Under the pieces are notes generated by a model that searched no databases, was not told the DNA's origin, and was given only the letters and a program-made list of their open reading frames with translations. Shown one piece after another: positions 28,580 through 34,888 of a stretch of DNA of 36,288 bases. Position numbers and translations under genes: made by a program. The DNA is from Chloroflexota bacterium (GTDB lineage: Bacteria > Chloroflexota > Chloroflexia > Chloroflexales > Roseiflexaceae), in NCBI GenBank assembly GCA_030550675.1, contig JAUQOW010000015.1, forward strand, positions 1-36,288. Reading direction: 5' to 3'. Within the stretch, counting starts at the first letter, position 1. Every line of letters begins with the position of its first letter.

Positions 28580-31500
28580 TTAGCCCGCAACTAGACGACG
28601 CACCTTGCCAGAAGCCTGCTGGCATCCTTGTGTGACAGGCGCGTGTTCTTGCGCAAATTCAACGATCCCAACGCCTACGTGTCGCAACGAAAGTTCCTTG
28701 ATGCCTGCCTGATCAAACGCCGCCACAACAGTAGGAGCCCGCGCGTCTGCCAGCACGGATGTCTTGATCACTCTCCCAAAGCCAAACGACGGATGCCAGA
28801 TTCGATCACCCGCTACATAGACGGGATGGCTGCTACAGATTTCTCCCCAAAGCTCATTGGCTTCCTTGCCATACGCGGCATCGCTCAAGAGTTTCTGGAC
28901 CAGCGGGAATAGTCGCCGGAGCGCTGCGCGCCGCTCCGTCGTCGTTTGCGGGAGCAGCGTTCGCAAGCGCCTGAGGATATCCATCAGATCACGCGGTCGC
29001 TCCTGCATAATCTTTGGTTGAAAGACCGCCAACCAGGACTCAACCGTTCTCCAGGGAAGTTTCGTCAGTTGCGGGGTGAGTTGATCATAGATCTGATCGT
29101 ATGTTTCGGGATGGTCAATTGCACACCTTTGGATGAACCTGAACGTCTCACGAAACTGAGTGTTCGAATCAAGCCATAAACTAACTGCAATCGGCGCCAG
29201 AGTTTTGTAGAACTCTGCTTGAGCAGGCGCCTGATGCGCCATACTCAGCGCACGCTTGAGCACGTCGAGTCGATCTTGTGGAGTGTCTGCGCGTATTTCA
29301 GCTTCAAACCACTTGCACCACACTATCACGTCGTATGTCGCACGTTGCGGTTTGAGACGAGCGTAGATTGTGTCAACCGTCGGCTTGTGCATCGTTCGCA
29401 AGGCGCGTAAGCAGTCAATCGCATATGTTTCGGTGTGCGGATTGCTTTGACACTCCTCCAGGTATGAGAGAGCAGCCTGCGGCTGTTCAATGTACAGGCG
29501 ATGCCATAGAGACCGCGCCTGCGCTGCGGTTTCTGAAAGATTAAAGAGAGAGCGCGCAATCCGTTCGAGTCGCTGCAAAGCGTCCGACCGTTCTTCATGA
29601 TTTTCAATATTGTTGATACAGTGTTTGAGGATATCGAGACGGGCCGCCGGCTCGTCAGCGACAATGCGTTCGGCGAAACGCTCCAAAAACCACGCAGTCT
29701 GGTTCCATCCTTTCAAGATGTTCATCCTGGGTCTCAGGACTCGGTAGATAGCCTCTGCCTGCTCTGAATCGCTCCGCAACCGGTCAATAAGGCGACGCGC
29801 CAGCTCGTGACCATGAGCGGCAGCCAGGGCGATTCTTTCGATCACATCATCAGCCAGCGCCTCGTTGCGTTCGGCGATCACCTGAGACCACTGAACAAGG
29901 GCGTCGAGGTTGCCGGATTGGTGCGCCGCATGCAGCGCAATGCGCGGATGCTCGCGGAGGATCGCTTCGGGGAATAACCGGATGATGGATTCGATGGCGT
30001 CCGCCGACCATGTCTGCCAGAATGACGGATTCGCGCTGAAACAGGCTGCGACGACCTCTGCGCGCTGATCGGGTTGCGCAGCAAGCCAGCCATGGAGCAA
30101 CGCCTGCACTCGTGCGCCATTTCTGCCGTCCTGGATGAGGTTGTCCAGTTCCTCAGCAATGAACTGCCATTCCCAGTGAGCCATGATGTCCGAGTAAATG
30201 ACGCGGGCATCTGAGAGCCTCGCGTATCGCGCAGCGTGACGGGCGTGTTCGCGGTAGCGAACAGGATCATGGAGCGGGCTTTCCGGCGCATAGAGGCGCA
30301 TGAGTTCATAGTGCGGCTCGTAGAGCATCCGTCCAGACGTGTGCGCAGATTGTTCCAGAATGCGCAACACGTCAGTCCAGGAATTGGCCTCTTCTTGCGG
30401 ATTGTTCAGGCGACGCGCGATAGTCGCACGCAGACGATGAAACTCGCTCGAGTCGGAGAGATGTTCGCGCGCACGCGCCATCAGGCGGTCAATGCGTTCG
30501 GACTCTTCAACCGCCGCGACGTCGACAAGCGTTTGCAGCATGTTCAGGAGATCGCGCGGCTGAAGCTCGAACACACCCTCCAGCATCGCCGTGGCGCGGA
30601 TCAGAAGCGCCGCCTGATGGTTCGGCGCATCCTGCAGGAGCCGCGCCGTCCAACCCTGGAGATAGGCGCCGAGCGAGGACCCCGACGCCTGGGCATGACG
30701 GATGGCGTCAAACAGGCGACCGATGGCGTATTCATCAGGCAGACGGTCCCTGAGTCCTTCCGCCTGCGTGAAGAGCCGTTCCAGCTCCTCAGTCATGCGC
30801 GCCACGACGCGCCGCCGCTGTTCCATATCGAATTGTGCGAAGTTTTCGTCGGGGACGCAGCGGCTGCAACTGTAGCAGTTGCCGCCCACGATGACTTCGT
30901 AGGTCTTGAGGTAGCCCAGCATCACAGCGCGCAGGCATTCTTTTCCTCGCGCATTGTCGATCAACCCATCTTCCCGAACGCCGACATAATCGGTCAGGAG
31001 GCGGTTATACGATGCCCAATCGTTTGCCCGACGCCTGTCGTGCACCGCCATGAATCGGTCAAGATAGTCGGCAAAGTCGTCTTCGCGCTCGAGCGCCGGT
31101 CCGCCACGCACCTCCCAGCCATAACGTAAGCACACCTCACGCCAGCCAAACCAATCGTCAATATCCGGCTTGGGGCGACCCGCCTCTCTGGCGCGTCTAT
31201 CTGCAACTTTCTTCGACGCCCGCTTCCACGCTCCCGCGTAGCCCCGCCACTGCTGCAGGGACGTGCATCCGGCAGCGGGACCATACCACGGCGCCACTAT
31301 CAGTCCGTCCAGCAGCGTTGGGCGCCAGTCGCCGGTCTGTCGATTTCGTCTGCCGTCGCTCTGGCGGATGTCGTGGATCATCTGTTCAAGATCGCTGAGC
31401 GGCATAGCGAGACGCTCTGCGAGAGGGATCAAATCGCCAGACTCGTACAATTGCTTGAATTCTTGAGACTTAATACCGCTTTTCCGCAGCAATTCGCCAA

Positions 31501-34500: not shown

Positions 34501-34888
34501 CGCCAATATCGATAATCCGCAGGCGCGATTGCGGCAGCGCGCCTGCGCGCAGAAGATCGAGCAGACAGAGTTGAACTTTGGCGACGTTCACGGTGCAGTA
34601 ATACGCCAGATAAGCGTCAAGCTGACCGGGCGAGTCGTAATAGTCGGCGTCGAATGATTTGCCTCTATTGGAAAACTGCACCCAATCTTCCGCCAGTTGT
34701 TTGATGCGAGCATCGTGTTGCCTGAGCAGCGACATGCCGCTTTCATACCGGCGATCAGGGCGCGGTCGCTCGCCAAACAGCATCTGAAATTGAGCGCTCT
34801 CCACATACGGCGACACACGCGCGCGCCCTCCAGGAGCGATCATGGTTTCCAGAGTGGCGAGCAGGGCTGGATCGCATGCGTAGTTCAT
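28580..34888 (-). CDS. 2102-aa fusion: Rsm22-like SAM methyltransferase - TRAM/OB-like - RecQ-family helicase - helical repeats - UvrD-like C-terminal Tudor motif
   Basis: [178 protein letters not shown]; C-term [16 protein letters not shown]...[10 protein letters not shown]. Confidence 0.85.
   Translation of the reverse strand: [2102 protein letters not shown]

Follow-up and report, generated by a model that had tools for sequence, protein, structure and literature searches.

Closest described systems

Proteins of the Rsm22/METTL17 family (PF09243) combine a Rossmann methyltransferase carrying a Cys loop with an OB domain and a WP dipeptide; a hallmark of Rsm22 is that OB strand 3 supplies the fourth Cys. 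Methylation of mt-tRNA by Rsm22 has been observed in vitro (PMC8171064). Methyltransfer by Rsm22 and METTL17 themselves is disputed (PMC12375894). In the RqlHI (PsyrTA) pair, a RecQ-like helicase with an enzyme domain is accompanied by a small partner, and when RqlI is missing the PRTase domain fused to the helicase is genotoxic (PMC4670107).

The window analysed here is the whole stretch of 36,288 nucleotides, positions 1 to 36,288 of the forward strand of contig JAUQOW010000015.1 (assembly GCA_030550675.1, Chloroflexota bacterium, Roseiflexaceae). An uninterrupted reading frame on the (-) strand (28580..34888) encodes a 2102-aa protein consisting of an Rsm22-like methyltransferase/OB head, a RecQ helicase, a zinc module, an alpha-solenoid and a Tudor-like tail. 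The gene for a 393-aa DUF1848 protein lies 33 bp upstream (34922..36103, (-) strand). None of the known systems searched combines these parts. The initial annotation had proposed the domain chain of the large protein, which was largely borne out. The identical fusion was also found in genomes G040, G015, G016, G223 and G106/G109; its presence in at least five other genomes rules out an assembly or frameshift join of separate genes, and the open reading frame is real.

PADLOC has no model for the methyltransferase head, and its best match in the RecQ core was DpdF. The DpdF equivalog model gave 136 bits versus an NCBIfam cut-off of 550, which excludes Dpd membership; no Dpd gene neighbours were recognised. 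Profile searches of the 2102-aa protein and its partner found neither a PRTase nor a DprA-like domain, hence the pair does not belong to RqlHI/PsyrTA. A literature search for Rsm22 together with RecQ returned only an unrelated yeast paper.

The Rsm22-like head

Residues 1-300 (33989..34888; all coordinates for this protein are on the (-) strand) are predicted by Pfam Rsm22, hhalign, AF2 and Foldseek to form a helical N-terminus and a class I methyltransferase core. PF09243 scored 26.4 bits with aa 1-540 (curated cut-off 23) and 22.6 bits, slightly under the cut-off, with the whole protein, and hhalign matched the head to the Rsm22 profile at 97.1% (E 6e-11). The AF2 model of aa 1-495 (pTM 0.83) has a methyltransferase-Cys loop-OB fold, for which PDB ranks 1-8 in Foldseek were all METTL17 or yeast Rsm22 (E 1e-7 to 2e-6), with a TM of only 0.33-0.46. 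Sequence comparison and modelling thus support an Rsm22/METTL17 fold for aa 1-495.

The proposal that an Rsm22-like methyltransferase, and not a DNA methylase, is fused to RecQ had been based on a Rossmann SAM motif and a PCGH Cys/His segment. Both are present, the former as 11 residues at aa 125-135 and the latter as GPCGH...CSTCW at aa 296-314, and Pfam, profile-profile comparison and predicted fold agree with the proposal. The DPPY/NPPY motif IV of DNA restriction-modification methylases does not occur in the sequence, and the only Pfam matches in the head are to Rsm22 and generic methyltransferase models, which rules out a DNA methylase. A viral fold search with the head yielded generic methyltransferases only.

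The Cys loop (aa 296-320, 33929..34003) includes three putative cluster ligands, GPC298...C310xxC313W, and corresponds to the cluster loop of Rsm22/METTL17 (PMC8171064, PMC11046306). C298, C310 and C313 are invariant across the family, and C436 (KFCPG), a putative fourth ligand, is nearly so. The four cysteines correspond to those that hold a [4Fe-4S] cluster in METTL17. However, the exact PCxH...CP loop motif and spacing of Rsm22/METTL17 are not matched: the window protein has PCGH. As the loop H is unconserved in the family and the cysteine spacing differs (12/3/123 versus 6/8/57 in METTL17), the head is, by sequence, a divergent relative and not an orthologue. Unlike Rsm22/METTL17, it is fused to RecQ, encoded beside DUF1848 and apparently mobile. 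C436 and the WP dipeptide (aa 381-382) are in the OB domain (aa 353-495, 33404..33832; AF2 strands 353-361 and 386-492). A separate OB/TRAM element suggested near 33480-33535 was not upheld, since this stretch is the C-terminal part of that single domain, which belongs to the Rsm22 fold in the AF2 model and bears the putative fourth cluster cysteine.

RecQ helicase, solenoid and tail

The helicase lobes (aa 541-985, 31934..33268) match Pfam DEAD (3.9e-23), Helicase_C (1.3e-13) and TIGR00614 (RecQ; 238.2 bits versus a cut-off of 219.8), and contain ATGGGKS at 574, DEAH at 680 and QEAGRAGRD at 943. The RecQ motifs are intact in nearly all intact family copies; in G004, the helicase is replaced by a UvrD-like SF1 enzyme. 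The full motif set reported initially was found, but the acidic/polar insertion placed between motifs III and IV was not: two polar insertions separate the motif-IV-like GAAIVFLPW (789-797) from motif V. A family-specific insertion (aa 986-1310, 30959..31933; 263-393 aa in relatives, mostly of low confidence in AF2) separates motif VI from the zinc module (aa 1311-1350, 30839..30958), which is displaced by about 366 aa relative to the RecQ arrangement. The Pfam RecQ zinc model found no match in the protein. The module cysteines, C1318-x19-C1338-x2-C1341-x2-C1344, are invariant in the family, and a separate RecQ of the same genome carries the same pattern. CYSCSRC (1338-1344), initially singled out as a zinc-type motif, is real, but its cysteine pattern identifies it as RecQ's own displaced zinc module and not an additional finger. 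The protein shares helicase motifs and zinc-module cysteines with RecQ helicases and differs from them in its insertions and in having no recognised HRDC; its N- and C-terminal modules are not known in RecQ.

Residues ~1370-2020 (28829..30781) are modelled by AF2 as helical hairpins (pLDDT mostly 75-90) and match TPR/HAT/HEAT solenoids in Foldseek, in agreement with the TPR/HEAT-like helices predicted earlier; the alpha-solenoid spans about 650 aa.

The tail (aa ~2026-2075, 28664..28813) shares GDRxxHPxFGxGRV...GIKEL and four predicted strands (pLDDT 60-71) with the C-terminal Tudor of PcrA/UvrD, and its top PDB matches are UvrD Tudor (E 0.076-0.5). The match to PF21196 (PcrA_UvrD_tudor; E 8.8e-4, 19.5 bits) is under the cut-off of 23.9, and the tail is limited to two Roseiflexus copies, being absent from family members outside Roseiflexus. 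The resemblance noted in the initial annotation is therefore retained only for this lineage, where a Tudor borrowed from UvrD is plausible on sequence grounds. PcrA requires H681, W684, K712 and L714 for RNAP binding (PMC5397179). The window tail has H, F, K and L at these positions, whereas in G068 M and F replace K and L. Transcription-coupled action, which had been suggested from the tail, is not supported as a core function because the tail is confined to two copies, is the least constrained segment between them (dN/dS 0.42) and has lost the contact K and L in G068; transcription coupling is weakly supported.

DUF1848 partner and tRNA-Gln island

The strongest functional clues are two features overlooked in the initial annotation, the DUF1848 partner and the island next to tRNA-Gln. 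The partner matches the uncharacterised DUF1848 family (PF08902) over its full length (2.1e-91), and a literature search for DUF1848 matched no paper in the collection covered. It has a C-terminal CPLGCVYC (aa 277-284) with the CX3CX2C pattern and scores 15.9 bits with PF04055 (radical SAM; cut-off 29.5), and may be described as radical-SAM-like. DUF1848 adjoins the large gene at all nine loci with a readable, retained SAM motif (the window, G068, G040, G015, G016, two in G004, G223 and the decayed G125). G106, G109 and G110 have no DUF1848 anywhere in the genome, and their copies of the large gene have either lost the SAM motif or carry a changed form of it, with the Cys and helicase motifs retained; this co-loss rests on one clade having lost both. 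Elsewhere DUF1848 is often found alone or in unrelated operons. A methyltransferase-like gene adjoins four of the other Chloroflexota DUF1848 genes (two being weak matches only) and many stand alone, so a universal pairing is unsupported. Between the two Roseiflexus copies, dN/dS is 0.15 for DUF1848, 0.23 for the methyltransferase and 0.07 for RecQ, values that indicate purifying selection on the pair.

The left border of the island is tRNA-Gln(ctg) (27824..27897, (+) strand; ARAGORN), and homology to system-free congeners ends at 27897-27899. Roseiflexus G068 has an 8.3-kb insert after tRNA-Gln holding only these genes, and the site is empty in congeners G065, G066 and G069. Homologues occur in 12 of 400 Chloroflexota genomes, with broken copies in G117 and G125 and a transposase near the copy in G223. 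This rarity, together with the insert, the empty sites, the broken copies and the transposase, points to mobility. An integrase/att-type island was not supported: the borders show no attachment-like direct repeat. A genome-contig scan with one sequence matched only the Roseiflexus relative.

Proposed function

Neighbouring genes encode CHAT-NB-ARC, JetD-like and HEC/AriA-like proteins in G015, NB-ARC in G016 and nSTAND1-WD40 in G004, which suggests a defence-like role. Our tentative reading, held at somewhat less than even confidence, is that of a rare, horizontally mobile, two-gene, nucleic-acid-modifying and defence-like helicase system of Chloroflexota. DNA (or RNA:DNA) would be the substrate that the RecQ motor opens. 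The Fe-S methyltransferase-OB head would bind the exposed strand and modify it using SAM, and DUF1848 would carry out a radical-SAM reaction, coupled to this one, on that substrate or on the product, with the solenoid and tail recruiting partners. Such a system would most likely serve to defend against foreign DNA or to control it, whether by marking it, poisoning it or sensing it. Counting against this reading are the housekeeping left flank in the window (dnaJ, tRNAs), the finding of no copy in plasmid, phage and viral collections, the missing PADLOC model for the head, the dispute over Rsm22/METTL17 methyltransfer, the single clade behind the link between SAM motif and DUF1848, and the frequently solitary DUF1848. 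A new immune or mobile-DNA-control class, in which a RecQ-driven Fe-S methyltransferase head of the mitoribosome-assembly type and then DUF1848 would give foreign nucleic acid a novel modification, is rather unlikely.

A chromosomal DNA repair or R-loop/transcription-conflict factor, in which RecQ and Tudor would bring the protein to stalled RNA polymerase, the head would bind RNA or ssDNA, and DUF1848 would reverse a lesion by radical chemistry in the style of spore-photoproduct lyase, is unlikely. RecQ membership, the contact residues of the window tail, the radical-SAM-like partner and the resolution of R-loops by PcrA (PMC8318588) are in its favour, whereas the patchy island with empty sites within a genus and broken copies, and the restriction, weak constraint and lost lysine of the tail, argue against it. 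The head might instead target host or invader rRNA or tRNA, with the RecQ part acting on RNA:DNA or structured RNA, as its characterised relatives all act on the ribosomal SSU or tRNA; given that RecQ enzymes are DNA helicases and that the genome already has an ordinary Rsm22 (G000:C429), this is quite unlikely.

The two-gene layout with a helicase-fused enzyme recalls RqlHI, and the joint loss of SAM motif and DUF1848 would suit a toxin/antitoxin-like pair, in which the helicase-fused enzyme would make a genotoxic modification for the partner to restrain or resolve; lacking PRTase and DprA-like domains, such a pair is improbable. It is very improbable that the head has no catalytic activity and serves as an Fe-S scaffold in a protein where only the helicase and the structure count: the copies in G106/G109/G110 keep cysteines and helicase although their SAM motif has decayed, and in METTL17 the cluster is likewise more conserved than the SAM site, but the motif is intact in every DUF1848-bearing copy where readable and the methyltransferase is constrained.

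The fusion puts on a DNA helicase a fold, that of Rsm22/METTL17, which until now was known in the context of RNA and ribosome assembly. The uncharacterised DUF1848 gains a specific partner: the methyltransferase-like, SAM-dependent domain, which loses its SAM site where DUF1848 is lost. Both offer testable handles on two long-open questions, the catalysis of methylation by Rsm22-type proteins and the role of DUF1848.

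Domain organisation of the 2102-aa protein

The window lies on contig C373 of G000, a Chloroflexota genome of Roseiflexus type whose closest named relative is Roseiflexus sp. SKYB12 (L040). The 2102-aa protein is encoded by a single open frame (28580-34888, minus strand) that forms an operon with a DUF1848 gene (34922..36103, minus strand; Pfam 2e-91) located 33 bases upstream. A Pfam search with the full-length protein matched DEAD and Helicase_C and left Rsm22 narrowly under the threshold, which was passed when only aa 1-540 were used (26.4 vs 23 bits).

The protein satisfies both the RecQ-family model and the RecQ motifs, as the initial annotation had proposed, and helicase activity is predicted from these motifs. 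The CYSCSRC sequence is a genuine zinc-type motif, and with C1318 it constitutes the zinc module of RecQ itself, in the same pattern as in the genome's separate RecQ. Between motif VI and this module lies an insertion particular to the family, 263-393 aa long in relatives. The other RecQ of G000 (L003:514-2601, contig C48) is RqlH-like, with a C-terminal phosphoribosyltransferase-like stretch. The expected TPR/HEAT-like helices were found at aa ~1370-2020, where predicted helical hairpins resemble TPR/HAT/HEAT solenoids.

The Rsm22-like head

The assignment of the head (aa 1-495) as an Rsm22-like methyltransferase was upheld by profile and structural comparisons. Profile-profile alignment of the N-terminal family with 16 ordinary Chloroflexota Rsm22, collected by PF09243, gave a probability of 97.1% (E 6e-11). 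The AlphaFold2 model (14 sequences; pTM 0.83, mean pLDDT 78) has a methyltransferase core followed by an OB-like barrel. Among 192 PDB matches at E <= 0.001, ranks 1-8 were human METTL17 (8csp/8csr/8css/8csu_7) and yeast Rsm22 (8d8j/k/l_0, 8om2_c), mostly aligned over ~470-500 columns. TM-scores were moderate, and the head is therefore a distant relative. It is not the Rsm22 orthologue, since an ordinary Rsm22 is encoded separately in the same genome (G000:C429).

Rsm22 proteins are marked by a family-unique cysteine loop and by a further, fourth cysteine on the third OB strand (PMC8171064), these cysteines hold a [4Fe-4S] cluster in METTL17 (PMC11046306), and a WP dipeptide precedes the OB domain (PMC12375894). 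A putative Fe-S cluster in the head is likely because C298, C310 and C313 are invariant in the family, C436, with which an OB strand ends, is almost invariant, and WP is kept (381-382). Use of SAM is likewise predicted from motifs.

The Tudor-like tail

The C-terminal ~50 aa are similar to the Tudor domain of PcrA/UvrD (8.8e-4) and are predicted to form four strands. The proposed likeness is plausible, with a score under the Pfam cut-off, and the tail occurs only in the window copy and that of the congener G068. In G040, G015, G016 and G223 the protein terminates in helical sequence of another kind. RNAP binding by PcrA is severely reduced by mutation of H681, W684, K712 or L714 (PMC5397179). 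At these positions the window protein has H, F, K and L, which would suit the transcription-coupled action hinted at initially; in G068, K and L are replaced by M and F. Comparison of the two Roseiflexus copies shows purifying selection on both genes, weakest in the tail (dN/dS 0.42). Given this replacement, the weak constraint and the limited lineage range, the evidence does not support transcription coupling as the main role of the system.

The DUF1848 partner

The C-terminus of the DUF1848 protein carries a radical-SAM-like CX3CX2C motif. A repeated Pro/Ala-rich AQPSAPVTAQD extension (34976-35158) is present at this end and missing from relatives. DUF1848 adjoins the homologue in G068, G040, G015, G016, G223 and both G004 loci, and also the decayed copies in G117 and G125. 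In three genomes of one genus (G106/G109/G110) the SAM motif is altered (LDLNAGFG / DATATDGL / CGESPSA), the cysteines and helicase motifs are kept, and DUF1848 was found nowhere in the genome; the gene upstream in G109 and G110 is SelA-like, as judged by eye. The joint loss is probably a single evolutionary event, and thus suggests, without proving, that the SAM site and DUF1848 function together.

Elsewhere in the phylum, some DUF1848 genes sit next to class I methyltransferase-like genes whose relationship to the head is weak or absent, most clearly in G224 and G301, and others stand alone. The G224 locus (L125:6917-9004) encodes a standalone Rsm22-like methyltransferase (379 aa, Cys loop YYPCIDMHCSSSSCWCWRE) followed directly by DUF1848, with no helicase. 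On a Roseburia plasmid (L144:4361-6981), a macrodomain ADP-ribose hydrolase and Sir2 gene and then DUF1848 lie in one row.

Distribution and genomic context

Homology with system-free congeners ends at the 3' end (27897-27899) of tRNA-Gln(ctg) (27824..27897, plus strand). Between this tRNA and the next conserved gene, G068 has 8.3 kb containing this gene pair only, and G065, G066 and G069 have ~155-330 bp at the corresponding site, a pattern that suggests mobility of the pair. The far border of the island lies outside the window because the contig ends upstream of DUF1848.

The family is rare, with matches in 12 of 400 genomes of the phylum and 16 of 158 genomes of the class (E <= 0.001); some of the matches counted are ordinary Rsm22, though few. 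Both G117 and G125 hold broken copies. The G068 frame is split inside the OB domain into 427 and 1673 aa with a 23-bp overlap (L040:11244-11266), for which an indel, a sequencing error or re-initiation are candidate causes. At one G004 locus the head and RecQ are separate ORFs; at the other (L032:5412-9611), which has an nSTAND1-WD40 gene as its neighbour, an Rsm22-like head is fused to a degenerate RecQ lobe, followed by an SF1 helicase of UvrD-like type. RecQ-UvrD fusions with an N-terminus that appears DnaQ-like by eye occur on plasmids of Allochromatium (L045:6002-11272, 1756 aa), beside a type I RM system, and Pseudanabaena (L047:6167-10789, 1540 aa), beside a large DEAD/DEAH helicase cluster.

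Among the systems described in PADLOC, NCBIfam and the literature searched, none unites the parts of this gene pair. Near the pair, G015 has genes for CHAT-NB-ARC, JetD-like and HEC/AriA-like proteins, G016 has one for an NB-ARC protein, and G223 one for a transposase. On account of this distribution and gene neighbourhood, the system may tentatively be regarded as defence-like, a purpose that we consider possible and slightly less probable than its opposite.
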